From assembly GCA_026393985.1 (NCBI GenBank), contig JAPKZB010000093.1:120350-184349 (forward strand): 64,000 nucleotides of DNA. Direction: 5' to 3'. The stretch comes from Acidobacteriota bacterium (GTDB lineage: Bacteria; Acidobacteriota; Terriglobia; Bryobacterales; Bryobacteraceae). Shown here piece after piece: positions 10,706-27,459 of this stretch; within the stretch, counting starts at the first letter, position 1; each line of letters begins with the position of its first letter. A program made the translations under genes and the position numbers. The notes below the pieces were generated by a model, which made no database searches, was not told the origin of the DNA, and worked only from the letters and a program-made list of their open reading frames with translations.

Positions 10706-10726
10706 CTTCCAGTCCGGCCAACTGCG

Positions 10727-10764
10727 GGCGGGTTCTCCTCCGGGGGGACCCGCCTTACTCTTTT
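10727..10764 (+). terminator. Rho-independent terminator after TonB receptor 1
   Basis: GGCGGGT (10727-10733) pairs with ACCCGCC (10748-10754). Five inner pairs (one T-G wobble plus CTCC/GGGG-type pairing) extend the stem to about 12 bp with a four-base loop. TTACTCTTTT follows. It lies between two convergent genes and overlaps the stop of the minus-strand one. Confidence 0.8.
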
Positions 10765-12542: not shown

Positions 12543-12560
12543 TGGCAGTATAAAGGCGAA

Positions 12561-13142
12561 ATGAAGGTTTCTGCACAAATCTGGTTAGCACGGCACGGCG
12601 AAACCGCCTGGAGCCTCTCCGGGCAGCACACGGGACGCACCGATATCCCCCTCACCGCCCACGGCGAAACCCAGGCCGCATCGCTCGGCCGCCTCCTCAA
12701 TGGAAGACAGTTCGGCCTGGTCCTCACGAGCCCCCTCCAACGCGCCCGCGAGACCTGCCGCATCGCCGGCTACGACGCTGTGGCCGCCGTCGAGCCAGAC
12801 CTGGCCGAGTGGCACTACGGCGACCTCGAAGGCCGGACCACGGCCGAGTTCCTGAGCGAACGGCCCGATTGGAACCTCTGGCGGGACGGGCCGCCCGCCG
12901 GCGAATCGATTGAAGAGGTAGCCGCCCGCGCCCGCCGCGTGCTCGACCGCTGCCTGGCCGCGCCCGGCCCCGCGCTGCTGTTCGCCCACGGCCATCTGCT
13001 GCGGATTCTGGCCGCGGTCTGGATTGAGGGTGAGCCGCGGGAGATGGCGCAGCGCCTCGCGTTGAGTACCGCCTCGCTTAGCCTGCTCACGCTCGAAAAG
13101 CAGACCCGCGTCATCGGCAGTTGGAACCGCGTCGAAAGCTAA
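12561..13142 (+). CDS. Histidine phosphatase (phosphoglycerate mutase-like) family protein
   Basis: 193 residues. The RHG signature LARHGETAW sits at residues 9-17, with His12 the expected phosphorylated residue. SPLQRARETC follows at about 55, an acidic segment LAEWHYGDLEG near 90, and the second catalytic histidine in LLFAHGHLLRIL (about 150). The length and E/R/G pattern fit the broad-specificity phosphatase branch (PhoE/CobC-like) rather than glycolytic mutase; the substrate is unknown. The start is the ATG at 12561; the frame stays open far upstream but that stretch is antisense to the neighbouring gene. TATAAA lies six bases before the ATG and no Shine-Dalgarno sequence is seen. Confidence 0.85.
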   Translation: MKVSAQIWLARHGETAWSLSGQHTGRTDIPLTAHGETQAASLGRLLNGRQFGLVLTSPLQRARETCRIAGYDAVAAVEPDLAEWHYGDLEGRTTAEFLSERPDWNLWRDGPPAGESIEEVAARARRVLDRCLAAPGPALLFAHGHLLRILAAVWIEGEPREMAQRLALSTASLSLLTLEKQTRVIGSWNRVES

Positions 13143-13178
13143 CCCTTCGCCAATCGCATACAATCTGGTAGGTTCCCT

Positions 13179-13934
13179 ATGCGTATTCTGATGCTGGCCG
13201 CCTGCGCCGCCGTCGCGCTCGCGCAGGGTGCTCCCCTCAAGCCGGAGGACGTCGCCGCCGGCCGCCAACTCTACAGGAACTCCTGCGCCGGCTGCCACGG
13301 CCTCACCGGCGAAGGCGGCCGCGGGCCTAATCTGATGGGCGGCCGCGCCGTCTCCCGGTCGAGCGACGAGGCCCTGTTCCAGTCCCTGAAGTTCGGCCTG
13401 GCCGGCACCGACATGCCGCCGACCAAACTGCCCGACGAGAAGCTGTGGCAGATTCTCGCCTTCGTCCGCGGTCTTTCGGCCCCGGCCTACGAAATCCCCG
13501 TCGAGGGCGACGAGAAAGCCGGCGCCGCCATCTACTTCGGCAAGGGCGGCTGCACCCGCTGCCACGCCATCGCCGGCCGCGGCGGGGTCAGCGGGCCGGA
13601 CCTCACCAGCATCGGCCACCAGCGGCCCCTGAACCTGCTGCGCGAAGCCGTGCTCGACCCCGGCAAACGCGTCGCCCCGGGCTATCAGCAGGCCACGCTG
13701 CACCTCCGCTCCGGCCGCACACTCTCGGGCGTGCTGCGCGACTACACGACCTATACCTACACGCTGCAGGACGACCAAGGCGAACTCCACTTCGTCAAAG
13801 CCGCCGAGGTGACCGACTCCCGCATCCTGCCCGGCAGCCCCATGCCCGCGGACTATCGCGCGCGGTTGACGGCGGCCGAGCGGCGGGATCTCGTGAAATT
13901 TTTGAGCCGCCAATCGGCGCGGGGAGAACAGTAA
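13179..13934 (+). CDS. Diheme c-type cytochrome with Verrucomicrobium-type heme-binding C-terminal domain
   Basis: 251 residues with a signal peptide (about 1-16). Two heme-attachment motifs are visible: CAGCH at 36-40 and CTRCH at 125-129. Likely methionine axial ligands are Met80 (GTDMPP) and the Met in GSPMP near 225. The second half, from GGCTRCHAIAG through SGVLRDYTTYTYTLQDDQG, resembles the Pirellula/Verrucomicrobium heme-binding domain. The stop overlaps the start of the PQQ dehydrogenase (TAATG), so this cytochrome is very probably its periplasmic electron acceptor. TACAAT (13160-13165) lies 14 bases or less before the ATG as a candidate -10. Confidence 0.85.
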   Translation: MRILMLAACAAVALAQGAPLKPEDVAAGRQLYRNSCAGCHGLTGEGGRGPNLMGGRAVSRSSDEALFQSLKFGLAGTDMPPTKLPDEKLWQILAFVRGLSAPAYEIPVEGDEKAGAAIYFGKGGCTRCHAIAGRGGVSGPDLTSIGHQRPLNLLREAVLDPGKRVAPGYQQATLHLRSGRTLSGVLRDYTTYTYTLQDDQGELHFVKAAEVTDSRILPGSPMPADYRARLTAAERRDLVKFLSRQSARGEQ

Positions 13935-15511
13935 TGCGCTTGCTTTTATGGATGGGTTTGGTCGCGGCCGCGGCCTCGGCCCAGGTCAAGTACGACGACA
14001 TCCTCGCCGGACCGGGCGCAAACTGGCTGACCTACGCCGGCAGCTACTCCGGCCAGCGCCACAGCTCACTCAACCAGATCAACACCGCCACGGCCAAGAA
14101 CCTGACCCCGAAATGGGTCTACCACGTGCCGGACGCCAAGAAACTCGAGGCGGTGCCGGTGGTCTATGACGGCATCCTCTACGTCACCAATTCGAACCAG
14201 CTCCACGCCCTCGACGCCCGCACCGGACGCAAGATCTGGGTCTATCGCGACGAACAGGCCGAAGGCTCCCGCGTCAATCGCGGCCCGGCCATTCTCGGCG
14301 ACAAGGTCTACTTCGTCACCACCGACTGCCACCTGGTCGCGCTCCACCGCAAAACCGGCGCCGTGCTCTGGCACAAAAAGTACGCCGACACCAAAGACGG
14401 CTACTTAGCCACCATGGCGCCCTTCGCCGTCAAGGACAAGATCATCGTCGGCATGGGCGGCGGCGACAGCGGCGCACGGGGCTTTTTGAAGGCCCTTTCG
14501 GCCGAAACCGGCCAGGAGTTCTGGACGCTCTGGACCGTGCCCGCCAAGGGCGAACCAGGCGCCGAAACCTGGAGCAAGGACGTGACCCTTCGTTGGGGCG
14601 GCGCGGCCACCTGGCTGTCGGGCACCTTCGACCCCGCGTTGAATCTCCTCTACTGGACCACCGGCAACCCATGGCCCGACTTCTACGGCGGCGACCGCCT
14701 CGGCGCGAACCTCTACTCGGATTCCCTGATCGCCGTCGACGTCGACAGCGGCAAACTGAAGTGGCACTTCCAGTTCACCCCGCACGATACGCACGATTGG
14801 GACGCGCAGTCCTGGCCGGTGCTGCTCGACATCCCCTGGGACGGCCCGCCGCGCAAGGTGGTGGTGCACCCCAACCGCAACGGCTTTTTCTACGTGCTGG
14901 ACCGCGTCACCGGCGAGTTTCTCCGCGCCACCCAGTTCGCCGACAAAGTGGACTGGGCCAAAGGAATCGACGCCAAGGGCGTGCCCATTCTCAATCCGGA
15001 CAAAGACCCGACACCCGGCGGCACCCGCGCCTGCCCGGCCGTGCGCGGCGCGGCCAACTGGATGTCGCCTTCCTACAACCCCGCCACCGGCCTGTTCTAC
15101 CTGCCGACGCTCGAACAGTGCGACATCTACTCTTCTTCAGCCAAGGAGCCCAAGCCCATGACGGGCTTTGCCGGCACCGGTGGCGAACAGATTCCGGCTG
15201 AGCCCGGCCAGATGTTCCTCCGCGCGATTGATCCGCGAACCGGCAAACGGGTCTGGCAGTATCCGATGACGGGCCCAGCCACCGCCTGGGCCGGCACCGT
15301 CTCGACGGCCGGCGGCGTGGTGCTGTTCGGCGATGACGCCGGCCATCTGGTCGCGGCGGACGCCAAGACCGGCAAGCACCTCTGGCACTTCGGCACGAGC
15401 CAGAACATTACGGCTTCGCCCATCACCTACCTGGTCGATGGCAAGCAGTACGTGACCATCTGCTCGGCCACGCACGTGTTCACGTTTGGGCTGTTCACCC
15501 CGGCCGAGTGA
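13934..15511 (+). CDS. PQQ-dependent dehydrogenase (quinoprotein alcohol dehydrogenase family)
   Basis: 525 residues; the ATG at 13934 overlaps the cytochrome stop and begins a signal peptide (about 1-16). The eight-bladed propeller is shown by repeats such as LHALDARTGRKIWVY, LIAVDVDSGKLKWHF and LVAADAKTGKHLWHF. Metal and catalytic motifs: TGNP with Asn245, and HDTHDWD at 284-290 with Asp288/Asp290 as candidates for the catalytic base. The region that carries the adjacent-cysteine pair in methanol and ethanol dehydrogenases has only one Cys (TTDCHLVAL). It oxidises an unknown alcohol or sugar in the periplasm and passes electrons to the cytochrome encoded just upstream. Confidence 0.88.
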   Translation: MRLLLWMGLVAAAASAQVKYDDILAGPGANWLTYAGSYSGQRHSSLNQINTATAKNLTPKWVYHVPDAKKLEAVPVVYDGILYVTNSNQLHALDARTGRKIWVYRDEQAEGSRVNRGPAILGDKVYFVTTDCHLVALHRKTGAVLWHKKYADTKDGYLATMAPFAVKDKIIVGMGGGDSGARGFLKALSAETGQEFWTLWTVPAKGEPGAETWSKDVTLRWGGAATWLSGTFDPALNLLYWTTGNPWPDFYGGDRLGANLYSDSLIAVDVDSGKLKWHFQFTPHDTHDWDAQSWPVLLDIPWDGPPRKVVVHPNRNGFFYVLDRVTGEFLRATQFADKVDWAKGIDAKGVPILNPDKDPTPGGTRACPAVRGAANWMSPSYNPATGLFYLPTLEQCDIYSSSAKEPKPMTGFAGTGGEQIPAEPGQMFLRAIDPRTGKRVWQYPMTGPATAWAGTVSTAGGVVLFGDDAGHLVAADAKTGKHLWHFGTSQNITASPITYLVDGKQYVTICSATHVFTFGLFTPAE

Positions 15512-15522
15512 GCCACCGGCGG

Positions 15523-17139
15523 TTACGGCGTCCGCGCGCAGCGAAAGCCCAGGTCCGGGGCCGAGTGGCTGGCCGGGATCGGCTCAATGGCAAAAGTTAC
15601 CGCCTCGGCCAACCCGCTCGCGAACGACCCGCCTTTGACGACGTGCCACATCGGCTCTTCCGTGGCGAACGCGCGGATCGCCAGCGCCGTCGGCGTGGCG
15701 CGGTCCGCCGTGAACTCCTTCACGTTGCCGATCATCTGGTACACGCCAAACGGACTGCGGCCGGTGCGGTAGGCATCGGCCGAAACAGCGTTCTGGCGCT
15801 TCCGGTCCGGGTTGTCCCGGACGTTGGCCATCTCCGGCTTATGCTGGGCGCCCCACGGAAACGGGCGGCCATCTTCGCCGCGCGCGCCCCGCTCCCATTC
15901 GAGCGTCGTGGGCAGGCGCTTGCCGGCCCACAACGCAAAGGCTTGCGCGTCCGCGATGGTGACATTCACCACCGGGAAACCGGGCTGGTCAGCAGGAAAA
16001 TCCTTCGGCAGAGCCCGGCCCGTCGCTTTGCAGAATACGCCGTAGGCTTCGTTGGTCACCTCGGTCAGGTCCAGGTAGAAGGCCGGCACCGGAATCAGCG
16101 TGTTGTCGGCGCCAAACCGGGTGGCGCCGGCGGGGATGAGCACCATGTCGCCGGCCGGATCGTCAATATGCTGGTGATCTTCAAGGCGCGCCTCCGCCTT
16201 CCCCCCTTGGATCAGCAGGTAACCGAGCCCCAACGCGGTGATGACAGCCAGCGCCACCGCCCCGCCGAGCAGCCGGTTATCGAGGCGTACCCGGCGCTTC
16301 TCCGGCAGCGGCGTCGCCTGCGTGGGATTGGACTGCAGCCACGCTTCGAGGCCCGCCGCCACCTCCGCCATACTTTGGCTTCGTTTCGCAGGATCCCGCT
16401 CGATGGCGGACCGGACGAGGTCAATCAGCCGCTCCGGCACACCCGCTTCGGTCAGCGGGGCCAGCGAGATCGGTTCGTGGAGAATCTGGTAGAAGATCCG
16501 CTCCACCGTATCGGCATCAATGGCGCGGCGACCGCTTAGAATCTCGTACAGCAGCACACCGTAGGAATAGACATCGACGAGCGGCGTAACCGGCTGCCCC
16601 AGAACCAGTTCCGGAGCCACATAATGGGGCGTACCGAGGGCAAACCCGGCCTGCGTCAACGTCACATCCTCGGTCTTGACGATGCCGAAATCCATCAGCT
16701 TCACGCGCCCCTGCGTGTCGACGTGAATGTTGTCCGGCTTCACATCGCGGTGGACGAACCGGCGCGAGTGCACGTACTCAAGCGCACGCGCCACCTGCAG
16801 CGCAATCGAGACGCGCTGGCGCAGCGGCAGCTCCGGGTTCGCCGCCAGGTACTCCTTGAGCGTGCTGCCGGTGAGGAACTCGAGCACGAGGTAGGGGATG
16901 CCGTCCTCTTCGCCATAGTCGTAGGTGGTGATGATGTTCTCGTGCACCACGGAACTCGACACCTGCGCTTCCAGCAGGAAGCGGGCGCGCGTGTCAGCGT
17001 CCTGCGCGGCCTTCCGGGTCAGCAACTTCACCGCGACGGTCCGGCCGAGCACGGTATCGCGTGAGCAGTAAACCTCCGACATGCCGCCGCCAAGAAAATG
17101 CTGCAGTTCGTATTTGCTAATGCGCGCCGGCAGTTTCAC
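15523..17139 (-). CDS. Ser/Thr protein kinase fused through a membrane helix to a formylglycine-generating-enzyme-like (SUMF1) domain
   Basis: 538 residues, GTG start. The kinase domain has a Gly-rich loop LGGGMSEVY (16-24), Lys38 (VAVK), HRDVKPDN (130-137), DFG at 150-152 and APE at 175-177, so all key residues are present and it should be active. A single transmembrane helix spans about 290-310. Residues about 329-536 form an FGE-sulfatase-like domain (MVLIPAGATRFG, DLTEVTNEAYGVFC, LPTTLEWERGARG, GNVKEF, VVKGGSFASG, LGFRCAR). This places the kinase inside and the FGE-like domain outside. True FGE uses cysteines; only one Cys-containing motif (VFCKATG) is evident near the domain core, so a ligand-binding sensor is more likely than an enzyme (inference). 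It ends 11 bases from the convergent PQQ gene. Confidence 0.88.
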   Translation of the reverse strand: MKLPARISKYELQHFLGGGMSEVYCSRDTVLGRTVAVKLLTRKAAQDADTRARFLLEAQVSSSVVHENIITTYDYGEEDGIPYLVLEFLTGSTLKEYLAANPELPLRQRVSIALQVARALEYVHSRRFVHRDVKPDNIHVDTQGRVKLMDFGIVKTEDVTLTQAGFALGTPHYVAPELVLGQPVTPLVDVYSYGVLLYEILSGRRAIDADTVERIFYQILHEPISLAPLTEAGVPERLIDLVRSAIERDPAKRSQSMAEVAAGLEAWLQSNPTQATPLPEKRRVRLDNRLLGGAVALAVITALGLGYLLIQGGKAEARLEDHQHIDDPAGDMVLIPAGATRFGADNTLIPVPAFYLDLTEVTNEAYGVFCKATGRALPKDFPADQPGFPVVNVTIADAQAFALWAGKRLPTTLEWERGARGEDGRPFPWGAQHKPEMANVRDNPDRKRQNAVSADAYRTGRSPFGVYQMIGNVKEFTADRATPTALAIRAFATEEPMWHVVKGGSFASGLAEAVTFAIEPIPASHSAPDLGFRCARTP

Positions 17140-17240
17140 CCGTCACCTGTTCACCCTATCGTCCTGTCTGTGCTTTTCTTTATCCCCTGCCGCTCAATGA
17201 GACCGACCCAATTCTAATCGTATTGTGAGCAGAATTTAAT

Positions 17241-17268
17241 CGAACCGAAACGGTTCGCTGGCTAGCCT
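17241..17268 (+). promoter_or_regulatory. Promoter with embedded perfect inverted repeat upstream of TonB receptor 2
   Basis: CGAACCG (17241-17247) and CGGTTCG (17251-17257) are perfect 7-base arms around AAA. TAGCCT (17263-17268) is a candidate -10, seven bases before the ATG at 17276. The palindrome therefore lies in the promoter spacer, where a bound repressor would block RNA polymerase. The regulator is unknown. Confidence 0.55.
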
Positions 17269-17275
17269 GTCGGAT

Positions 17276-20113
17276 ATGAAGCTATTTGCAGGCACTTTGC
17301 TCGCGGTGGGGTTATGGGCCCAGTCTAACGCAACCGACGCGGCGTTGAACGGATATGTGCGCGATGAGTCCGGAGCGTCGATTCCAGCCGCCAAGGTAAC
17401 CGCTCGCAACCTCGCCACCAACACCGAGGTCGCCGGAACCACCAACCAGGACGGCTACTTCCGGTTTCCGCTCCTGCGCGTGGGAGAGTATGCGCTGCGG
17501 GCTTCGGCGCCGGGTTTCGCCGAGTTTGAGCAAACCGGCGTCCGGCTCACGGTCGGCCAGCAGGGCCGGATCGACGTGACCTTGAAGGTAGGAACCGCCG
17601 CCGACAGCGTGACCATCAACGCTGACGCCGCGCTCGTCACCGTCGGCGATGTCGCTCAGGGCGAGGTCCTCAACGAACGGGCGGTGCGAACCCTGCCGAT
17701 CACGTCGCGGAACGTCTACAACTTTCATCTTCTCGGCCCGGGCGTCAAGGGCATTCCCTCTACCGGCTTCGGCACCACGCAGTTCACCTTTGGTGGCCAC
17801 AACCGCTCCACCTGGACGGTGGACGGCCTCGACAACTCGCAGCGGCGGACCAACCGGCAGATCCGGCTGGTGATTTCCACACCCGAATCCGTGCAGGAGA
17901 TGCAGGTTCTCTCGGGTGCTTACAGCGCTGAGTTCGGCCGCGCCGCCGGCGGCATCATCAATGTCATCAGCCGCTCCGGCAGCAATGAATTGCATGGCTC
18001 CGGCATGGGTCTCTACCGACCGAACTCTACCTCAGCCCGGGCGCCGCTCGCCGCCCGTCGCGCCCAGCAGACCTGGTGGATGGTGGCCGGCAACCTGTCC
18101 GGCACCCTCAAAAAAGACCGCCTTTTCTTCTTCATCAACGACGAGTTCAACCCGCTGAAAACGCCGCAGCCCGTTACCATTCTGCCCTCCGCCGCCCAGG
18201 CCCTGGGTCTTCCCGCTGCCGACCTCGCCGACTCCCCCTTCGGCGAGACCTTCCACACCCCAAGCGCCAAGCTCAATTTCAATCTGAACTCCAAAAACAG
18301 CGGCTTCCTCCGCTACAACCGCTTCACCAACGACCAACCCGGCGGCGGCGGCGGACTCACCGCCATCAGCCGCAGCCTCTCCTTCGAAGACCGCATGAAC
18401 GGCGGCGCCGGACAGTTGGCGACCGTCATCTCCCCTACCCTGCTGAACGAACTCCGCTTTGGCATCAACCGGCGGGCCGAGACCCGCGAAACTTACGTCC
18501 CGGGCCAGCCCAACGGGGCCCAGATCAACATCACCGGCGTCGCCAGTTTCGGCGTCAACCCGCTGGCGGGATCCGCCAGCGTGGAAACCTCCACCCAGAT
18601 CATCGATAATCTCACCTGGTCGCTCGGCCGCCACACCCTGAAGGCCGGTCTCGACTACCAGACCACCGGCTTTCAGATCCGAAGCGCCTTGAATCGCCTC
18701 TTCACCTTCGGCGGATTATCGGCTGCGCCGGCCCGCCCCGCCGTCACACCTCTCGATCAATACCTGCGGACCGTCGCCGGCGCTATCGATCCGGCAACCG
18801 GCCGCCCCTACACTTACACCCAACTGGCCCAGGAACTCGGCGAGAATTCGATACCCTTGCGCTACCACTTCGTAAACTTCTTCGTGCAGGACGAGTTCCG
18901 GCTCTCGCCCCGGCTGACTCTGAACTTCGGCGTCCGCTACGAGGCCGTCCTCAATCCCGTACTGGATGAACGCGCCCCCTTTTCCCTCTCCCAGCGGGTG
19001 AACAATGACATGAACAATTGGGCGCCCCGCTTCGGCTTCTCCTGGTCGCCCTTTCCGGACGGTAAAACCGTGGTCCGGGGCGGCTACGGGATCTTTTTCG
19101 ACAATCCCAGCCTTGGCACCAGCGCCACCGGCGCCCTCGTCAACGGCCGGCGCCTGCTCAGTTACACCATCCCGGGAACAGACGCCCGTTCCCCCGTCTT
19201 CCCCAATCTGCTCGGCTCGGCCGATCCCACCTTCCAGACGCCGCCCAACATTACCGCGTTTAGCCGGGACCTCCAGGTCATGTATGGACACAACGGCAGC
19301 CTGCAGATCCAACGGCAGGTTCTCAAAGACCTGGCCGTCAACGCCCAATACAGCTATTGGGGCCACCGCTTCGCTCCCTACTCCCGCGATATCAATCTCA
19401 GCACCCCGGCCAGCTTTCTCGCCGACGGCCGGCCAGTCTATCGCGGAACCGCCGGACGGCCTGACCCGCGTTTTCGGGCCATCAATCTGATCGAATCCGG
19501 CGCCAACAACAACTATCATGGCTTAGACCTCACCTTGACCAAACGCTTCAGCGCGGGCTTGCAATTGTCCACCACCTGGAGCTGGTCGCACGCCATCGCC
19601 GATGGCGATCTCGAAGCCGGGGCGCTCTCCGACCCCTCGCTGCGAAGCCGCGATAAAGGCAACGCCAACGCCGACGTGCGCCATAACTGGGTACTGCAAG
19701 GGCTCTGGGCCCCGGTGTTCGCCACACCGCAAATGAAATGGTTCAACGGTTTTGAACTCTCCGCGGTGGTCTTCTTCAACTCCGGCTACATGATCAATCC
19801 TCTGGCCGGCACGGACCTGAACAACGACCTCGTGCTGAACGACCGCCTGCCGTTCCGGGCCCGGAACTCCTTCACCGGACCAGGCTTCTTCCAGACCGAC
19901 CTCCGCCTGACCCGCCGGATCCGCTTCGCCGAACGGCAGTCGCTCGAGTTGATTGCCGAAAGCGAGAACCTGACCAACCACCTCAATGCCGCCTGCTCGA
20001 TTGCCGGCTGCACCGGCGCGGTGGTAAACCGCGATGGAGCGGCCGACTTCGGACGCATCACCAGCACCCGCGCCGGCCGCAACTTCCAATTCGGAATGAG
20101 GTACGCGTTCTAA
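17276..20113 (+). CDS. TonB-dependent receptor, Oar-like, with carboxypeptidase-regulatory-like domain (receptor 2)
   Basis: 945 residues, the shortest of the four receptors here. The signal peptide is about 1-18. The regulatory domain begins at ALNGYVRDESGASIPAAKVTAR (about 23-105), and the plug contains LPITSRNVYNFHLLGPGV, WTVDGLDNSQRRTNRQIR and SAEFGRAAGGIINVISRSG. The barrel ends in RNFQFGMRYAF with a terminal Phe. The stop overlaps the start of the S1/P1 nuclease gene (TAATG), linking this importer to an exported hydrolase and hinting that it takes up products of that enzyme (inference). Expression is probably controlled at the palindrome in its promoter. It is divergent from the kinase gene with a 136-base gap. 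Confidence 0.9.
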   Translation: MKLFAGTLLAVGLWAQSNATDAALNGYVRDESGASIPAAKVTARNLATNTEVAGTTNQDGYFRFPLLRVGEYALRASAPGFAEFEQTGVRLTVGQQGRIDVTLKVGTAADSVTINADAALVTVGDVAQGEVLNERAVRTLPITSRNVYNFHLLGPGVKGIPSTGFGTTQFTFGGHNRSTWTVDGLDNSQRRTNRQIRLVISTPESVQEMQVLSGAYSAEFGRAAGGIINVISRSGSNELHGSGMGLYRPNSTSARAPLAARRAQQTWWMVAGNLSGTLKKDRLFFFINDEFNPLKTPQPVTILPSAAQALGLPAADLADSPFGETFHTPSAKLNFNLNSKNSGFLRYNRFTNDQPGGGGGLTAISRSLSFEDRMNGGAGQLATVISPTLLNELRFGINRRAETRETYVPGQPNGAQINITGVASFGVNPLAGSASVETSTQIIDNLTWSLGRHTLKAGLDYQTTGFQIRSALNRLFTFGGLSAAPARPAVTPLDQYLRTVAGAIDPATGRPYTYTQLAQELGENSIPLRYHFVNFFVQDEFRLSPRLTLNFGVRYEAVLNPVLDERAPFSLSQRVNNDMNNWAPRFGFSWSPFPDGKTVVRGGYGIFFDNPSLGTSATGALVNGRRLLSYTIPGTDARSPVFPNLLGSADPTFQTPPNITAFSRDLQVMYGHNGSLQIQRQVLKDLAVNAQYSYWGHRFAPYSRDINLSTPASFLADGRPVYRGTAGRPDPRFRAINLIESGANNNYHGLDLTLTKRFSAGLQLSTTWSWSHAIADGDLEAGALSDPSLRSRDKGNANADVRHNWVLQGLWAPVFATPQMKWFNGFELSAVVFFNSGYMINPLAGTDLNNDLVLNDRLPFRARNSFTGPGFFQTDLRLTRRIRFAERQSLELIAESENLTNHLNAACSIAGCTGAVVNRDGAADFGRITSTRAGRNFQFGMRYAF

Positions 20114-21096
20114 TGCCTGCTCTTCTCCTTCTCTTCCTCACCGCCTCTGCCGCCTTCGGCTGGGGTGTACGCGGCCATCAGGCCATCAACCGGGCGGCCG
20201 TGTTGAGCCTGCCCGAAGATGGCCCCACGTTTCTCCGCGCTCACGAGGAATGGATCGCCTACCTGTCGATCATTCCAGACAGTTGGCGCAGCCCCTCCGA
20301 ACCGGCGCTCAAAATCCTCGAAGATCCCAATCACGGCTGGTTCAAAGAGCAGTTCGCCATGCTTCCGGCCATTCCCCGCTCGCGCTACGAGTTTATCCTG
20401 GCGCTCTACGAGGCCCAAAAGAAACAGAAGCCGGAAGAGGGCAAGCGGACCAACGTGCGGTGGACGGGCACGCTTCCCTATGCCGCGCAGGAGAACTTCG
20501 AACGGATGCGCGCCGCCATGCGCCGCTATCGCGCCCTCAAAGCGGGCGGCCAGGACACCAAGTTCGTCGAATGGGAGATCGCTTCCTACATGGGCCGCCT
20601 CGGGCACTACACCGGCGACGGGGCGCAACCGCTCCACGACACCATACACCACGATGGCTGGGCCGGGGACAACCCCAAGGACTTCACCCGCGAACCCCGC
20701 ATTCACGGCCGCATTGAATCGCAGTACGTAGACCTGATCGCCGTCGCTACCCCGGATGTCTTGAAACAGGTCGGTAAGCCGAAACGCCTCGCCGATCCGT
20801 TTGCCGCCATCCTCGCCCATCTGGACCTGGCCGCTTCTTACGTCGAGGAGGTCTATCAGTTGGACAAGACCGGCGCCTGGGCCGACAAAGATCACCCGCG
20901 AGCCCGCGAACTGGTCCACGAACGGCTCGCCTCCGGCGCTACGCTGCTGCGCGACCTGGCCTACACCGCCTGGCTCGAAAGCGATCAGCCCTTCCGCTTC
21001 AGCCGCGGCAACAACCCGATCGATCCCGATGGCCCGGGGTATAATCCGGCAACCGGGTCCGCCCCTCCAGGTCCTCCCGTGGTAGTCCGCAAATGA
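20113..21096 (+). CDS. S1/P1 nuclease-family (zinc-dependent) secreted hydrolase
   Basis: 327 residues with a signal peptide of about 16 residues; cleavage leaves Trp17 at the mature N-terminus, followed by GVRGHQ. In this family the N-terminal Trp and the GH histidine ligate zinc. The downstream LGHYTGDGAQPLHDT (about 158-172) and the HGRIES segment match the GDxHQPLH signature and its acidic partner. The family includes S1/P1 nucleases and zinc phospholipases C, and sequence by eye does not separate them. It overlaps the receptor upstream by one base and the YdcF-like gene downstream by four (ATGA), so the three genes are translationally coupled. The tail is Pro/Gly-rich and probably disordered. 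Confidence 0.8.
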   Translation: MPALLLLFLTASAAFGWGVRGHQAINRAAVLSLPEDGPTFLRAHEEWIAYLSIIPDSWRSPSEPALKILEDPNHGWFKEQFAMLPAIPRSRYEFILALYEAQKKQKPEEGKRTNVRWTGTLPYAAQENFERMRAAMRRYRALKAGGQDTKFVEWEIASYMGRLGHYTGDGAQPLHDTIHHDGWAGDNPKDFTREPRIHGRIESQYVDLIAVATPDVLKQVGKPKRLADPFAAILAHLDLAASYVEEVYQLDKTGAWADKDHPRARELVHERLASGATLLRDLAYTAWLESDQPFRFSRGNNPIDPDGPGYNPATGSAPPGPPVVVRK

Positions 21097-22241
21097 GATC
21101 GCTCAGCCTGTTCCTTCTGCCTGTTCTGTTGCTGGCACAGCCGGCCCGGCGCCCGCTCGAACTGCGTTCCCCCCTCCAGGACAAGATCTTTTCCGTGCTC
21201 TCGGCGCTCGAGCGGGCACCCGCCAAAGACCCTCGTCTGGACGAGATCGCGGCACGGAAACGGGCTGCCCTGCAGCAACCCGGCAACCCGATCGAAGCGA
21301 TGCGGTGGACGCCGGAGGAGATCGCCACGGTGAGCGCGGTGCTGGCCGGCGCCCATCACCTCGACGCCGAACTCCGCGCCACCGGCCTTCATCAAAAGGA
21401 ACCGGTGTTGGTCTCGGCCTGGGAGGGCGCCGCGACCGGCATCAACCGGATCTACGACGTTTACGGGCTCGGCAAGCCGCCCCGCTATCCGGCCATCGAC
21501 GCCGTTTCTTTCGATGTCAAGTCGCCCAACTATGCCCGGATGCTCGAAGTAATTCGCGCGGTGATGAGTGAAGAACCCGATGGTCATCCCCTGTTCTTCC
21601 ACGCCCCCCTCCGTTTCGCGCTCGAACTGCTGCGGGCGAACTGGCGGGACGAGGCCGGGCGCTTCGAGCCCATGGAGCGCGGCGAAAACCAGGCGGCCTT
21701 TGCCCGCATCGGGTCGACCGATTGGAGCCGTTACCGCTACTCCGCCATCGTCGTCCCCGGCTCCGGCACCGACCGGCCCGGACAAGCTATGTCGCCCTGG
21801 GGCAAGGCGCGGGTGACGCTGGCGGCGCGCCGCTTCAAGGCCGGTCTGGCGCCTTTTTTGATCGTCTCCGGCGGCTACGTCCACCCGGCCCAAACTCCAT
21901 TCTGCGAGGCGCTCGAGATGAAGAAGGCGCTCATGGCGGAGCACGGAATCCCGGCCGCGGCAATTCTGATCGAACCGCACGCCCGCCACACCACCACCAA
22001 TCTGCGAAACGCCGCCCGGCTGCTCTGGCGATATAACTTCCCCTGGGAGAAGACCGCGCTGATCACCACCGACCAGGGGCAGAGCGCCTACATCGAAGCG
22101 CCAACCTTCGCCCAGCGCTGCCTGACCGAGATCGGCTATCTCCCCTACGAGGGCCTCCAACGAATCTCGCAATTCGATCTCGAGTTTCGGCCCCGTGCGG
22201 AATCTTTACAGGCCGACCCGCTTGAACCGCTCGATCCGTAA
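21093..22241 (+). CDS. Exported YdcF-like (DUF218) domain protein
   Basis: 382 residues with a signal peptide (about 1-16, ending LLLAQP). Residues about 30-205 have no domain I recognise. Residues about 215-355 carry the DUF218/YdcF core: YSAIVVPGSG, ARRFKAGLAPFLIVSGGYV, MKKALMAEHGIPAAAILIEPHARHTTTNLRNAA and TALITTDQGQSAY, with the conserved SGG and the E..A..T..N pattern. YdcF-type proteins bind nucleotide-like ligands or act in envelope metabolism; no precise reaction is known. It is the third gene of the receptor 2 operon (ATGA overlap with the nuclease). Confidence 0.75.
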   Translation: MRSLSLFLLPVLLLAQPARRPLELRSPLQDKIFSVLSALERAPAKDPRLDEIAARKRAALQQPGNPIEAMRWTPEEIATVSAVLAGAHHLDAELRATGLHQKEPVLVSAWEGAATGINRIYDVYGLGKPPRYPAIDAVSFDVKSPNYARMLEVIRAVMSEEPDGHPLFFHAPLRFALELLRANWRDEAGRFEPMERGENQAAFARIGSTDWSRYRYSAIVVPGSGTDRPGQAMSPWGKARVTLAARRFKAGLAPFLIVSGGYVHPAQTPFCEALEMKKALMAEHGIPAAAILIEPHARHTTTNLRNAARLLWRYNFPWEKTALITTDQGQSAYIEAPTFAQRCLTEIGYLPYEGLQRISQFDLEFRPRAESLQADPLEPLDP

Positions 22242-22243
22242 CG

Positions 22244-22249
22244 TATCCT
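22244..22249 (+). promoter_or_regulatory. -10-like TATCCT before the gene at 22258
   Basis: TATCCT lies eight bases before the ATG, so initiation would place the 5' end at or next to the start codon. It suggests the secreted hypothetical has its own promoter even though only 16 bases separate it from the upstream operon. Confidence 0.4.
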
Positions 22250-22257
22250 GAAAGGGC

Positions 22258-22968
22258 ATGCGGTTGTTCTGCTTCGCAATGGCCACCCTGGCGCTGGCCG
22301 CCGACTGGCCCGGCAAAGCCTTTCCAGACTGGAGTGACGACACCGTCCTTAAGGTGTTGACCAACTCGCCCTGGACCCGGGCGCGCACCGTGCGCCTCGA
22401 ATGGACCAAGCGCGACCCCGGCAAGGTCGACCTGCGCGATATCCCCGGCGCCATCCATCAGCCCGCCAACGTCAACCAGGGCGCCGGGCCGCTCGGCGGC
22501 ATCGGCCGGGGAAAGAACAAGGCCTCGCTGCCCGACCGCGCCGAAATCCTCGTCCGCTGGGCCGGCGCCTTGCCCGTGCGGCAGGCCACGGCGCTCTACC
22601 GCCTGCGCGAGGAGAAGCTGGACCCGGGCCAGCTGAATGCGCTGATCGGCGTGCCCGAAAAGTACGCCGTCGTCGAGATCTTCGGCCTGCCCGCCGGCAT
22701 TGCGCACCAGGGCACGGCGGTCGTCGAAGACATCGCCGTCCGCTCGGCCACGCTCCGCGTGGGCAACAGCGGCGCGCTGGCCAAAGCCGTCAAGGCCGAA
22801 GCCAAGCTGCACGGCGACGGGCTCACCATCCGCGTTCATTTTGAGCGCACCCCTGAGCTGATGCAGGCGCGGGGCGATATCGAATTCGTCGTCGACATGC
22901 AGATCTTCGAAGTCCGCGAGTGGTTCCGGACCACCGGCATGCGCTACCGCGGCGCGCTGGAGCTGTGA
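22258..22968 (+). CDS. Secreted hypothetical protein
   Basis: 236 residues with a signal peptide (about 1-15, cleavage before DWPGKAF). I do not recognise a named family. The mature start has DDTVLKVLTNSPWTRARTVRLEW, then a Gly-rich low-complexity stretch (about 75-95), then a beta-rich region with ILVRWAGALPVRQAT and YAVVEIFGLPAG. Proteins with the same D-E/D-TVL-LL-SPW opening are, from memory, common in Solibacter-like genomes without assigned function. It lies just after the receptor 2 / nuclease / YdcF operon and converges with tamB, stops one base apart. Confidence 0.65.
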   Translation: MRLFCFAMATLALAADWPGKAFPDWSDDTVLKVLTNSPWTRARTVRLEWTKRDPGKVDLRDIPGAIHQPANVNQGAGPLGGIGRGKNKASLPDRAEILVRWAGALPVRQATALYRLREEKLDPGQLNALIGVPEKYAVVEIFGLPAGIAHQGTAVVEDIAVRSATLRVGNSGALAKAVKAEAKLHGDGLTIRVHFERTPELMQARGDIEFVVDMQIFEVREWFRTTGMRYRGALEL

Positions 22969-22969
22969 C

Positions 22970-25900
22970 CTAGCGAAGCTGCTTACGGAATTGAAAGTCG
23001 AGGCCAAAGGAGCCGTTTTCATCGCGCAGCGCGATGACCGACCACTCCTTGCTCAAGTTCCACTCGAGACGCACCACCTGCTGCTGGGAACGGTTGAGCG
23101 TGGTGACAAAGGTGACCGTAACGTCCTTCGACACCTGCTGCTCGACGGTCAGGCGCGCCTGCGGCGTGCCTTCCAGGCCGGAGATCAGCGGGTCGATCTT
23201 GAGGCGGCTCACCCCGAAAAACCGCTGCAGCTGGCTCGAGATTGGCGCCGAGATGGCGTTGCCGAGCAGCGTGTTGGCGCCGGTCTGGAGGAAGCTGCCG
23301 CTCTGCTGGCTACCCTGGCTCGTGTAGGAGATCGAGTCCGGGCTCCGGCCAACCGTCAACAGGGCAATGATCTCGGTGGGCGCCAGCGGCGGGTCGCTGC
23401 GGTAGGAGACGTTGAGCTTGTTGATGGGTCCGCTGAAGTTGATGCCCACCGTCACCGCGCGAATCCGCGTTTCGACGTCCATGTCGAGAACCGGCTCGAT
23501 CTTGCTCGTGTTGTAGAAGCTGACCTCCCCGCGCTTGATCGTGTACTTGCTGCCGAAGAAGTTGACCTCACCCTGGTTGACGGTGATGCGGCCCTGCACC
23601 ACCGGCCGGGCGGCCGACCCGCGTACGTTCAGGTTCGCGTCCGCCTGCAGGTCGCTCGTCAGCGAGGTGGTGAACCGCGTGTTCGGCCCGGTGCGGACCC
23701 GCACATCGAGCTGCATGTTGCTCAGGAACGGATTGGTCGATACGCTACTGGCGCGGCTCGCGGTGGCGTCCGAAAGCAGCGAGCCCAGATCCGTGCGGGG
23801 CTGAAAGCCGGACCGTTGAATGGTGATGTTGCCGCCAAGCAGGCTCTGCGTGGGCGTGCCGGTAAGGCTGAGCGCGCCATCGGCGACGGTGGAAAGGCCT
23901 TCGGGGTAGCGGATGCGCACCCCGGCCACCGAGGCTTGGAGACGATAGAAGGTCTCGGCCTCGCCGAAGTCGACAAAGCCGGAGAGCGCCAGTTCGCCGC
24001 CGCCGGCCTGCGCGGTGAGCTTGTTTTCGATCGTCGCGCGGCGCCGGTCAAACAGGACGCGGCCACTGACTTTGTCAAGGCCCGTGGGGATGTCGTCGAT
24101 CGACAACGCCGCGTCGCGAAGGTCGAGGCGGCCAAACAGCTGCGGATTGTCGAACTCGCCACGCACATTGGCTTCGACGGTGGCGATGCCGCTGGCCAGG
24201 ATCTCGGAGCTGAAGCTCTTGAGGCCAGCCAGGTTCAGGCTGCCGTTGATGCGCAGGTCCCACGGGCGGCGCTGGGCGAGCGAGAAGGAGCCTGTGGCGG
24301 CGAGGTTGGTATCTTTAGCGACGAAGCGGGCGCGCTTGATGGTGATCGCACCGCGGTCGGCGGAGAAGTGCAGCGGGCCGTCGTTGCGGAGTGCAAACTC
24401 CGGCCCGCCCCGCGCCGGGCGCAGCGCCAGCTGCGGGATGGACAGTTCGGCCTGCCACTTTTCCGGCTCGAACGCCGGCCCGCTGAAGCGGCCCTGCGCC
24501 GAGACGGACCCGGTGAACGGCAGGGGCTCGGGACGCAGATCGTTCCAGACATCGAGCGGCAGTTCGGCGAAAGAGAGGCTGCCGGAGCCCGGATATCCCT
24601 CCGTGAGGCGGTAGTTGCCCGCCCCGCGGATCTCGGTATTGCGGATGCGGCCGGCGGCGTCGAAGGCGAAGTTGCCGCTCTCGGTGCGGCCCTTGAGCGA
24701 GAGCTCCCCGAGAGGCTTTTCGTTGAAACTCAGACGGCTGAGGCCGGCGTCCACCTGCACGGCGGTGAGCTGCGGCTGCCGGTTCCGCAGCTCGCCCGCC
24801 AACTGCGCCGTGCCGCGGAGCAGCCCGGCCCAACCCGGCGCCTGCTCCCGCATGTCCTTCCAATCGAGGAGGCTGAAGCCGGCCAAGCTCACGTTGGCCG
24901 TGAACGGGCCCTCGTCGACCACCCGGCCGCTGCCGGTCAGCCGGGCCGCCCCCCGCGCGGCTTCAAAGGACGATACGGTGAGCTCTTTGCCGCGCAGCCG
25001 TCCGGTGGCGCGGAGCGCGTCGAAGATCTCGCCGCGCAGGATCGGCTTGGGGGCTTCGAGCGTGGCGGCGATATCCGGAGCTTGCAGCGTCCCCGCGATC
25101 ACGACCGAGCCGTTCACGAAGCCGATGGCGGGGAGTTCGGCGGAGAGGAGTTTGAAGTTGACGTTGCGAGCCGTGAGGCGGGCGTTGAGCGGGGCCGTCT
25201 CCACCGGCTTCCAACCGGCCAGCAGCAGGGTACCGGAGCCTTCCACCTGCGCGCGCTCCACTTCGGCCGTCAGCCCGGAGACGTCGAGGCGCGTGGGCGA
25301 AAGCACGACAGTGGCGCTTGCGCTGGCGGCCAGATACTTGTCGTAGCGCAGGTTGCGGGCCTCGACGCGCCCGGCGATCTGCGGCGTGCGGACGTCGCCC
25401 GTCACCGTGCCTTCAAACTGCAGACTGCCCTGTTCGAGACGAAAGGGAAGGCTTTTAACGGGCACGTCTTCGAGGCGGGTCGTCGTGGCACGGACGCGGA
25501 CCGTTTGGTTCAGCGTGCCGGAGACGGCGATGCGGCTTGAGGGCGTGGCGAGATAGGAGTCGGCGAACGAGAGCAGGTTCTGCGCCTGTTCATAGCGGGC
25601 GCGAACTACGCCTTCGACGGGAATGCCGCCCGGGCCAGGCGCGATGGTCATTTCGCCGGAGGCGTCCCAGGGGCCCTTCAGCGGTCCCGCGACGGCGATC
25701 GCGCCCGTCATCGCCCCGGAGTAGGGCATCTCCGTCAGCCGGAAGCGGCGGGCGACCGCGGCGAGCGAGAGAGCCTCCACCTTGCCTTTGACCGCGAGCG
25801 AGCGGTAGCCGGAGAGGTCAACTTCGCCCATAAAGCGGCCTTCGGGCGAAGTGGCGGCGAGGTTGGTCAGGCGGCCGCCGTCCGGGGTGAGCAGCACGCG

Positions 25901-26839
25901 GCAGCGGGCGCTGATCCCCTTGGCATACTCCGTGCTGAGGTCGCGGCCGGAGGCCTCGCCCTCGTAGCGGTAGCTCTCCTCGGCGCTGTAGGAGAACACC
26001 CCGGCGGTGGCGATCGGCCCCGCGCCCAGCCGGGTCTCGGCCAGGTCGGAGCGGGCCGAGAGCTTCAGCGTAATTTTCGGATGGAGCAGGTCGCGAATGG
26101 CGCCGAGGCCCTCGACCGTATGGCGGCCGGCGTCGGCGCGGAACTTGTGCAGCGTGATGCTGTCGGCAAAAACGGAGAGTTCGGTCGACAGGTCTCCGGC
26201 GAAGTGGGGGAGGAAGAAGCTGGGCAGATCCGCGGTGAAGGCGGTGGAACGCAGAGCGCCGTCGTAGCGGTTGTCGTCGGGCGAATAGGTGAAACCAAGT
26301 TCGAGGTCGCGCCCGGCAAAAGCGAACGGAGCCTGGGTCTGGTTGTAGGTAAACAGGCCGTTGTGCACCGTGAAGGTATCGATGGCCAGCGCCACCACCG
26401 GCGCGAGCGGGGCGCCGGACCGCGGGCGGGCTTGCGCGGGCGAAGGAATGTTGGTGGTGCCATCGTCCCGCCGCAGCAGATGGAACTCCGGACTTTGGAT
26501 GTCGAGCGCTTGCAGGTCCACCTTCCGGTTGAGGAACGAGAGGAGCTTGAGACCGAGTTGAATGCGGGGAGCGCGGAACAGCGGGCGCGCTCCGGGCGGT
26601 TCGGTGCCATGCAGAACGAACCCTTCGATGGTGACCTGCCAGGTGGCGGGGTCGAAGTCGAAGCGGCTCATCTCCGGCCGTCCGCCCGTGGCCCGGGCGA
26701 TTTCCGTGAGGGTGCGGCGGCGGATCTGCTCCCGGAGCCAAGCCGATTGAAAGACCAGGAAGCCCACGGCGAACAACCCCGTCAGCAGGAGTACGACGAG
26801 GGCGGCGAAGCGGAGCAGACGGCGGCGCCAGGGGCTCAT
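22970..26839 (-). CDS. tamB: Translocation and assembly module TamB-like protein (DUF490)
   Basis: 1289 residues. A single N-terminal membrane anchor (about 7-30, RRRLLRFAALVVLLLTGLFAVGFLVF region) is followed by an AsmA-like start and a very long series of beta-strand repeats. The C-terminal roughly 330 residues form the DUF490 domain, recognisable by LDVRVRTGPNTRFTTSLTSDL, GRITVNQGEVNFFGSKYTIKRGEV and PPLAPTEIIALLTVGRSPDS, ending at QFRKQLR. TamB spans the periplasm and works with an Omp85 protein in outer-membrane protein insertion or lipid transport. It overlaps the upstream SurA-like gene by four bases (ATGA) and is the last gene of an assembly operon. Confidence 0.88.
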   Translation of the reverse strand: MSPWRRRLLRFAALVVLLLTGLFAVGFLVFQSAWLREQIRRRTLTEIARATGGRPEMSRFDFDPATWQVTIEGFVLHGTEPPGARPLFRAPRIQLGLKLLSFLNRKVDLQALDIQSPEFHLLRRDDGTTNIPSPAQARPRSGAPLAPVVALAIDTFTVHNGLFTYNQTQAPFAFAGRDLELGFTYSPDDNRYDGALRSTAFTADLPSFFLPHFAGDLSTELSVFADSITLHKFRADAGRHTVEGLGAIRDLLHPKITLKLSARSDLAETRLGAGPIATAGVFSYSAEESYRYEGEASGRDLSTEYAKGISARCRVLLTPDGGRLTNLAATSPEGRFMGEVDLSGYRSLAVKGKVEALSLAAVARRFRLTEMPYSGAMTGAIAVAGPLKGPWDASGEMTIAPGPGGIPVEGVVRARYEQAQNLLSFADSYLATPSSRIAVSGTLNQTVRVRATTTRLEDVPVKSLPFRLEQGSLQFEGTVTGDVRTPQIAGRVEARNLRYDKYLAASASATVVLSPTRLDVSGLTAEVERAQVEGSGTLLLAGWKPVETAPLNARLTARNVNFKLLSAELPAIGFVNGSVVIAGTLQAPDIAATLEAPKPILRGEIFDALRATGRLRGKELTVSSFEAARGAARLTGSGRVVDEGPFTANVSLAGFSLLDWKDMREQAPGWAGLLRGTAQLAGELRNRQPQLTAVQVDAGLSRLSFNEKPLGELSLKGRTESGNFAFDAAGRIRNTEIRGAGNYRLTEGYPGSGSLSFAELPLDVWNDLRPEPLPFTGSVSAQGRFSGPAFEPEKWQAELSIPQLALRPARGGPEFALRNDGPLHFSADRGAITIKRARFVAKDTNLAATGSFSLAQRRPWDLRINGSLNLAGLKSFSSEILASGIATVEANVRGEFDNPQLFGRLDLRDAALSIDDIPTGLDKVSGRVLFDRRRATIENKLTAQAGGGELALSGFVDFGEAETFYRLQASVAGVRIRYPEGLSTVADGALSLTGTPTQSLLGGNITIQRSGFQPRTDLGSLLSDATASRASSVSTNPFLSNMQLDVRVRTGPNTRFTTSLTSDLQADANLNVRGSAARPVVQGRITVNQGEVNFFGSKYTIKRGEVSFYNTSKIEPVLDMDVETRIRAVTVGINFSGPINKLNVSYRSDPPLAPTEIIALLTVGRSPDSISYTSQGSQQSGSFLQTGANTLLGNAISAPISSQLQRFFGVSRLKIDPLISGLEGTPQARLTVEQQVSKDVTVTFVTTLNRSQQQVVRLEWNLSKEWSVIALRDENGSFGLDFQFRKQLR

Positions 26840-27459
26840 GGCTGCAGCTCCTCGTAGGTTTCGATGTGCGTGTTTTGCCGCACTTCAGCCAGCCACTTCG
26901 AGAGCAGCACGTTAATCTGCTCGGCCCGCAGCACAGTTTCAATCTGATCGCGGACCTCTTCGAGGGGCGGCTTGGGTTGGGCCGGGAGCCGCTGGTCGTA
27001 GTAGGCGCGAATCTGGGCGGGGTCCACCTGTACGGCGGGGCGGAAGCGGTTGAGGGTGAAGCGGAGGACGGCGGCTTGGTGGCGTAGGCTGAGACGCACC
27101 TGTTCTTCGGTCAGGCGGTAGTGCCCGAGAAGTTCCGCCCACCGGGCGGGGCCGCCGGCGTCCTGGATCTCGCGTTCGACAGCGGGCTGCACTTCGCTGC
27201 TCTCCGGAATCGGGTAGCGGCTGGCGCGCATCTCTTCGAGGATCAGGAGCCGGTCGACCAGGCGGTCGCGCATGGCGGCAAACGCCTCGTAGGTTTCAGC
27301 CACCGGCGCCCCGTCAAGCAGGGCCGCCACGCGAATCTGGTGGCGGACGGTAGAAGCCGTGATGACCTTGCGGCCTACGGTGGCGACAATGCGGTCGACC
27401 ACTTCGGCTGAGGCCGTCGCCGCCAGGAGTCCGCACAGGCCGAGCATTCGTATGGTCAT
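26836..27459 (-). CDS. Periplasmic SurA N-terminal-like chaperone lacking a PPIase domain
   Basis: 207 residues with a signal peptide (about 1-18). The sequence VVDRIVATVGRKVITASTVRHQIR right after cleavage is the classic start of SurA/PpiC-type chaperones (usually I-A-x-V-n-x-x-I-x-x-d). The rest is helical with many Arg and Glu residues and a C-terminal helix EVRDQIETVLRAEQ. No parvulin PPIase core is present. It sits between the BamA/TamA-like gene (one-base overlap, TGATG) and tamB (four-base overlap), so it probably escorts outer-membrane substrates to that machinery (inference). Confidence 0.75.
   Translation of the reverse strand: MTIRMLGLCGLLAATASAEVVDRIVATVGRKVITASTVRHQIRVAALLDGAPVAETYEAFAAMRDRLVDRLLILEEMRASRYPIPESSEVQPAVEREIQDAGGPARWAELLGHYRLTEEQVRLSLRHQAAVLRFTLNRFRPAVQVDPAQIRAYYDQRLPAQPKPPLEEVRDQIETVLRAEQINVLLSKWLAEVRQNTHIETYEELQP

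Follow-up and report, generated by a model that had tools for sequence, protein, structure and literature searches.

The stretch of DNA analysed here, 64,000 nucleotides in all (the window), lies on contig JAPKZB010000093.1 of a 5.9-Mb Acidobacteriota assembly (GCA_026393985.1; contig C17 of genome G000 in our numbering). Within it we examined a run of four genes, all on the forward strand, encoding an Oar-like TonB-dependent receptor, an exported zinc hydrolase, an exported DUF218 protein and a putative exported protein of unknown family (Table 1). The first-pass annotation had placed four open reading frames at these positions and had read them as one unit, with the first three tied together by overlapping codons. 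Both overlaps are real: the receptor stop and the hydrolase start have one base in common (TTCTAATGCC), and the hydrolase stop and the DUF218 start overlap as ATGA, with gene 4 starting 16 bases past the end of gene 3. Such overlaps are themselves ordinary in bacteria, and their weight rests on their conservation. The one-base overlap was seen at 11 of the 17 receptor/hydrolase junctions listed, including all nine within the genus, and each of the 14 unfused Acidobacteriota loci examined has the four-base overlap, as ATGA in 13 and GTGA in one. The conserved unit is genes 1-3, and gene 4 is only a neighbour. We suggest that these three genes probably form a variable and horizontally spread outer-membrane scavenging unit that works without SusD.

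Table 1. Features of the locus, with positions in the window.
Feature	Position	Strand	Remarks
Cassette (upstream region and genes 1-3)	17186..22237	+	Stretch missing from G010
Gene 1, Oar-like TonB-dependent receptor, 945 amino acids	17276..20113	+	CarboxypepD_reg, Plug, OMP_b-brl_4 barrel
Gene 2, exported zinc hydrolase, 327 amino acids, phospholipase C/P1 fold (predicted)	20113..21096	+	Invariant candidate ligands, model fold
Gene 3, exported DUF218 (YdcF-like) protein, 382 amino acids	21093..22241	+	PF02698 match
Gene 4, putative exported protein of unknown family, neighbour outside the unit	22258..22968	+	

Comparison within the genus separates the three genes from the fourth. The hydrolase, the DUF218 protein and the receptor (the last at an expect value, E, of 1e-150) occur in the same 11 of 19 genomes, and the other eight, among which G008 is 62% and G002 83% complete, have none of the three. 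In G010 the alignment to the window ends at 17185 and restarts at 22238, at the gene 3 end, with 22 unrelated bases between; both sides of this gap are intact on a single contig, with the kinase, gene 4, TamB and more of the flanking sequence in place. In a TamB tree G010 falls with G016 among the carriers (support 100/100), and the cassette was therefore most simply lost there as a single block. Because G010 retains gene 4 in the absence of genes 1-3, gene 4 lies outside the unit and a four-gene unit is ruled out. Of 61 related genomes, 45 have a relative of gene 4 and 12 have one of the hydrolase; gene 4 adjoins gene 3 in eight of the 11 carriers and lies elsewhere in G004, and the contigs end in G005 and G011. 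In one genome (G012:C4) the hydrolase gene is in pieces, its C-terminal part being there more than once, through decay or assembly error.

Conservation of gene order, which the first-pass annotation had named as a check on the four genes, holds for genes 1-3 well beyond the genus. We scanned public genomes for the hydrolase with the patterns WFKEQFA and QENFERM, which pick up close relatives only, and obtained 25 loci, of which nine are genus genome records already counted. Our home-made gene caller misplaces some starts and genes, and statements on gene order rest on tblastn instead. The closest named hydrolase relative, 98% identical, is in a Bryobacteraceae metagenome-assembled genome. A DUF218 gene directly adjoins the hydrolase in 24 of the 25 loci, and 16 of the 17 from Acidobacteriota have an orthologous receptor upstream. 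The exception to both is L111, a record that begins 399 bases before the hydrolase; a second copy in the same assembly (L114) has the unit. Eight further Acidobacteriota loci have the gene order of the window (L109, L110, L112-L116 and, from a sample of the phylum, L142 of G393), with identities to the window proteins of about 49-64% for the receptor, 55-60% for the hydrolase and 44-48% for DUF218. The hydrolase and DUF218 form one open frame in L110, L112, L113 and L142, the last cut by a contig end. Distances for the two proteins agree across 11 Acidobacteriota loci (r 0.95, from 55 dependent pairs), and the correlation across all 17 loci is lower, at 0.81.

The genome sets of our phylum and order surveys are samples. 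In the phylum, 84 of 396 genomes have a hydrolase relative at E 1e-5, and only four of these reach 426 bits, the next scoring 257; two of the four (G000 and G393) have it in the unit, G329 has it outside the unit, and in G219 a contig end cuts the locus. Among the lower-scoring relatives, those listed lack the YNP.TGSAP tail and differ in the residues that follow the zinc His. DUF218 also follows an Oar-like receptor in the absence of the hydrolase in the Acidobacteriota genomes G109, G096 and G199, and genes for a sialate-type esterase, GH3 and GH36 are found near such hydrolase-free DUF218 genes. Two PhoD phosphatases stand beside an isolated DUF218 gene in G058, and PhoX is near the fused hydrolase-DUF218 genes in two loci. 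One gene, present in L113 and L142, resembles GDPD, but Pfam gives no match for it, and a search of solved structures with the L113 protein was likewise empty. Relics were seen as well. In G438 (L178, 4515-5354) the first part of an Oar-like receptor resembling gene 1 runs in frame into a hydrolase tail, and at 8202-8921 of L207 a GDSL-type piece is joined into the C-terminal half of the hydrolase.

The remaining eight loci of the scan, about 52% identical, are sphingomonad (Novosphingobium, Sphingopyxis and Sphingomonas among them), and here the order is receptor-DUF218-hydrolase, the last two genes being reversed relative to Acidobacteriota. A tblastn search with gene 1 at 1e-6 did not match the sphingomonad receptors; they belong to another subfamily, with Plug and TonB_dep_Rec domains. 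An overlap between receptor and DUF218 is possible at 11 of the 16 sphingomonad junctions examined. The trio is also found on three sphingomonad plasmids, in one case near transposase genes. An even sample of the order has the hydrolase in nine of 296 genomes, at ten places, seven of them trios (one being L117 again), which brings the distinct sphingomonad trio loci to 17; the other three places are L205, L206 and the relic L207. A ROK regulator stands beside eight of these 17 and an MFS_2-type transporter beside six. Two loci have neighbours of another kind. Just upstream of the unit and on the same strand in L119 (1156-3820, Sphingomonas deserti) are an NrtR-type repressor, a Band 7 protein and a protein like a nicotinamide adenine dinucleotide (NAD) kinase; downstream in L123 (9099-12375, Sphingopyxis LC81) are an NrtR-type repressor, a nicotinamide mononucleotide adenylyltransferase/Nudix protein and a nicotinamide phosphoribosyltransferase.

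In the same order sample, 17 of the 296 genomes carry the long DUF218 protein, at 18 places, the seven trios included. A receptor lies directly upstream at 15 of the 18 (the exceptions are L227, L231 and L236), and in L236 a GH78 gene is upstream of DUF218 and another receptor downstream. Where the hydrolase is absent, a GH92 enzyme is present at four places, its gene overlapping DUF218 by four bases at three of them, and a PI-PLC-C1 (phosphatidylinositol-specific phospholipase C) at one; in the trio of L204 a PI-PLC-C1 gene is inserted between receptor and DUF218. The totals for partner enzymes are thus four loci with GH92 and two with PI-PLC-C1, together with one PhoD and one GDSL lipase, each beside the hydrolase. 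In sphingomonads the constant part is the receptor plus DUF218, and the added enzyme varies between the zinc hydrolase, a GH92-family glycosidase and a PI-PLC. In L227 (558-8156) a receptor remnant precedes DUF218, which stands beside phosphonate-type genes, one of them PhnH by Pfam and others resembling PhnM and PhnE by eye.

Gene 1 exceeds the Pfam cut-offs for PF13620 CarboxypepD_reg (80.0 bits against 32.3), PF25183 OMP_b-brl_4 (330 against 30) and, narrowly, the Plug domain PF07715 (24.6 against 23.9), and TonB_dep_Rec is also over its cut-off; CarboxypepD_reg, plug and barrel domains are the combination expected of an Oar-like receptor. A SusC/SusD locus is marked by a SusD-like lipoprotein adjoining the receptor, and no SusD match was found in the eight proteins scanned between 10755 and 26839, a scan that left out 13934-15511. 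Like the SusC/SusD polysaccharide utilisation loci, the unit encodes a TonB-dependent receptor together with exported hydrolases of what would be one pathway; unlike them, it has no SusD among these scanned neighbours, and its constant partner is the DUF218 protein. Genes 2 and 4 have no Pfam family above cut-off, and an NCBIfam search with genes 2-4 was empty.

The hydrolase retains nine candidate zinc ligands, W17, H22, D56, H74, H165, D169, H175, H198 and E202, which are invariant in all 22 aligned relatives, and the alignment thus shows candidates for the zinc residues whose absence the first-pass annotation would have taken as a refutation. Its N-terminus is signal-peptide-like by eye, and the mature protein would begin at W17; such a cleavage, leaving Trp17 N-terminal, would fit the requirement of this metal site. 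The passages available of one study give the zinc ligands of SmNuc1 as Trp27, His32, Asp71, His88, His141, Asp145, His151, His175 and Asp179 (PMC11705217), and the spacings of our candidates mostly match these, the last ligand being Glu. An hhalign comparison with the S1/P1 nuclease of the same genome pairs eight of the candidates, the last as Glu for Asp; D56 is unpaired and is assigned by invariance and spacing only. In zinc-dependent phospholipases C the last ligand is Glu.

Neither family claims the protein by sequence. The window hydrolase scores 14.0 bits against a cut-off of 29.5 for PF02265 (S1/P1) and 15.9 against 26.8 for PF00882 (zinc-dependent phospholipase C); among the 22 relatives, weak S1-P1 matches were found in 20 (best E 0.0013) and PF00882 matches in ten (best E 9.4e-6). 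A single-protein search of solved structures found no relatives, and a profile search found only plant and fungal S1/P1 nucleases, at E 0.03-0.19. In structural comparison, the predicted model aligns with zinc phospholipases C and S1/P1 nucleases at Z 12.7-14.9 over 29 entries, the next unrelated entry scoring 5.5, and residue 17 of the model pairs with the N-terminal Trp position. On this model the hydrolase is a divergent branch of the phospholipase C/P1 nuclease fold. With the S1/P1 nucleases (SmNuc1, P1, AtBFN2) it has in common the predicted fold and a candidate Trp1-based zinc site, and with SmNuc1 also a W-to-H spacing of 5 and the arrangement H(4)D(6)H; unlike them it has Glu rather than Asp as ninth candidate ligand, it lacks the Tyr-x-Asn of nucleoside site 1 (Tyr89 and Asn91 in SmNuc1), and it carries the extra conserved motifs EDPNHGWFKEQFA and TN.RWTGT and a C-terminal tail. 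HGWF replaces HY.N in 22 of 22, in a motif comparison that rests, on the canonical S1/P1 side, on five sequences of 12 loci. The tail, NP..YNP.TGSAP, is conserved and of low confidence in the model; it ends the unit-type hydrolases and, where hydrolase and DUF218 are fused, lies inside the protein as a linker. The protein resembles the zinc-dependent phospholipases C of the Bacillus cereus type in its predicted fold (Z 13.3-14.9 for these alone) and its final Glu, and differs from them in falling short of the PF00882 cut-off. The S1/P1 membership assumed by the first-pass annotation is accordingly not upheld, both by score and by the missing Tyr-x-Asn beside the zinc His.

Gene 3 matches PF02698 with 58.2 bits against a cut-off of 27.6, its DUF218 domain occupying residues 218-327 and about 215 N-terminal residues having no Pfam match. 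LDP closes 23 of the 24 aligned DUF218 proteins, and in the remaining one, L080, a single residue follows it. A structure search with the gene 3 model (predicted template modelling score 0.53) listed YdcF (3ca8) at rank 13, with E 0.031 and probability 0.90, and a sequence search of solved structures found no relatives. In E. coli the DUF218 proteins SanA, ElyC and YdcF influence the synthesis of peptidoglycan and enterobacterial common antigen, and SanA function needs a Thr-His-Glu triad; the passages available of that work give no biochemical reaction (PMC12176290). Like the periplasmic SanA and ElyC, gene 3 has a DUF218 domain that would lie outside the cytoplasm; unlike them, it has a long Pfam-free N-terminal part and is linked to importers, not to peptidoglycan or common-antigen genes.

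A 17-base perfect palindrome, CGAACCGAAACGGTTCG, lies at 17241-17257, 18 bases 5' of gene 1. As an operator it was rejected: among 24 upstream stretches listed it is present only in the window and G016, and its genome-wide count with one mismatch equals that of a control (6 and 7 per strand). No tRNA was found in 10000-30000. A single protein, encoded on the opposite strand immediately before the cassette (15523-17139), combines Ser/Thr protein kinase and FGE-sulfatase (formylglycine-generating-type) domains. For gene 4, neither Pfam nor NCBIfam gives a match, even with E up to 1. Its relatives, about 42-43% identical, adjoin relatives of a PQQ-type (pyrroloquinoline quinone) dehydrogenase, encoded in the window at 13934-15511, in three genomes (L084, L085 and L087), and gene 4 may therefore belong with that enzyme.

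We consider it probable that genes 1-3 act together in scavenging. A bulky conjugate would cross the outer membrane through the TonB-dependent receptor; the exported zinc hydrolase would cut a phosphodiester bond in it, the exported DUF218 protein would work on the same substrate or its product in the same compartment, and the conjugate would serve as a source of phosphate and carbon. A SusD-free scavenging unit was also what the first-pass annotation had in mind, and the scan of neighbouring proteins fits it. Our suggestion for the substrates is more tentative. Since the receptor and DUF218 are constant and the enzyme varies (zinc hydrolase, GH92 or Ca-dependent PI-PLC), the likeliest substrates may be phosphodiester-containing, sugar- or inositol-bearing conjugates, such as phosphoinositide glycolipids or phosphoglycans. 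GH92 enzymes are alpha-mannosidases, and one described activity of the family is on mannosyl phosphodiesters. Taken together, the partners seen (PI-PLC, GH92, PhoD, GDSL lipase, ROK and MFS_2) would suit a conjugate that contains phosphate, sugar or inositol, perhaps along with lipid. Of the two substrates first proposed, nucleic acid and phospholipid, the phospholipid or phosphodiester side thus gains from the PI-PLC-C1, PhoD and GDSL lipase partners in relatives; the sugar side (GH92, ROK, MFS_2) had not been foreseen.

The nucleic-acid alternative, in which the hydrolase would be an exported nuclease and the receptor would import oligonucleotides, draws on the S1/P1-class fold and zinc site, on the weak S1-P1 matches among the relatives, on S1/P1 nucleases being the sole sequence matches among solved structures, and on RefSeq-type annotation, which labels the plasmid copies nuclease. 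We think it improbable, since the window protein is under the PF02265 cut-off, Gly-Trp-Phe stands where Tyr-x-Asn follows the zinc His, and GH92 and PI-PLC appear as partners. Moreover, a separate canonical S1/P1 nuclease (G000:C68:7443-8153, E 4.5e-64), with HYVN at that motif, is encoded elsewhere in the window genome and in 16 of the 19 genus genomes overall; this rules out gene 2 as the housekeeping nuclease and counts against the original proposal of nucleic-acid scavenging. Scavenging of NAD or another pyridine nucleotide seems less probable still. NAD-type genes flank the unit in L119 and L123, and NrtR occurs in only three of the eight sphingomonad genomes searched, in two of them beside the unit; however, across the 26 genomes or records searched NrtR was found in five and the phosphoribosyltransferase in one, neither is in the window genome, and this lead was chosen after the neighbours had been seen.

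Transport might also run the other way, the Oar-like receptor exporting the hydrolase, and conceivably DUF218 as well, across the outer membrane, with the NP..YNP.TGSAP tail as a possible docking signal. Gene 1 is Oar-like and, as in Myxococcus xanthus, stands beside an exported hydrolase; the passages available of PMC6434023 describe Oar of M. xanthus as required for secretion of the protease PopC, and the YNP.TGSA tail is kept in unit-type hydrolases and missing from the unlinked relatives listed. Yet PopC is described in those passages as having no signal peptide (PMC6434023), whereas the hydrolase N-terminus is signal-like by eye; the sphingomonad receptor is of another subfamily, the same receptor-DUF218 pair occurs with GH92 or PI-PLC, the G329 hydrolase has the tail without an adjoining receptor, and the tail is internal in the fused proteins. 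We therefore regard export as unlikely, if somewhat less so than the nucleotide-based alternatives. That the three exported genes are functionally unrelated and stand together by chance and short common descent would agree with the absence of the unit from most sampled genomes and with the unlinked hydrolase in G329; it is very hard to reconcile with an arrangement found in two phyla, with a different receptor subfamily, swapped order, fusion, joint loss and plasmid copies, and we give it the least credence of all.

Several observations nevertheless weigh against the scavenging unit as we describe it. The G329 hydrolase lies outside any unit, in a genome with no unit-type DUF218 at E 1e-20, and that of G219, where a contig end cuts the locus, has no receptor upstream. 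The loci L207 and L177 hold remnants. Two sphingomonad loci have the hydrolase but no adjoining DUF218, namely L205 (receptor-GDSL lipase-hydrolase) and L206 (receptor-hydrolase-PhoD, with an extracytoplasmic function sigma factor nearby), and conversely DUF218 is without the hydrolase at 11 of its 18 sphingomonad places. Sphingomonads are split in the DUF218 tree, which has long branches, and not in the hydrolase tree. The neighbour counts are raw, with no background rate, and unrelated genes are among the neighbours too. Finally, the hydrolase model was built from 11 sequences and has a mean pLDDT (predicted local distance difference test) of 67.8, and Foldseek with this model returned nothing below E 0.001 (best E 0.03).

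A literature search found no paper on the receptor-hydrolase-DUF218 unit, which is weak evidence of novelty, as coverage was thin for subscription papers. The scavenging unit that we propose would be a TonB-receptor locus built round a partner other than SusD in two phyla common in soil, and genes annotated as nuclease in such loci may not be nucleases. The pairing of DUF218 with a zinc hydrolase in an uptake unit, and its fusion to that enzyme, offer a concrete route to a biochemical reaction for the family. More speculatively, the long exported DUF218 protein could be a general catalytic partner of TonB-dependent importers, with receptor and DUF218 as a core to which bond-specific enzymes are swapped in, and could take the phosphorylated or glycosylated product of the fused zinc enzyme. 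If this is true, the DUF218 family, known from SanA and ElyC, would gain a substrate class for the first time, namely glycoconjugates linked by phosphodiesters, of which glycosylinositol phospholipids and phosphomannans are examples.

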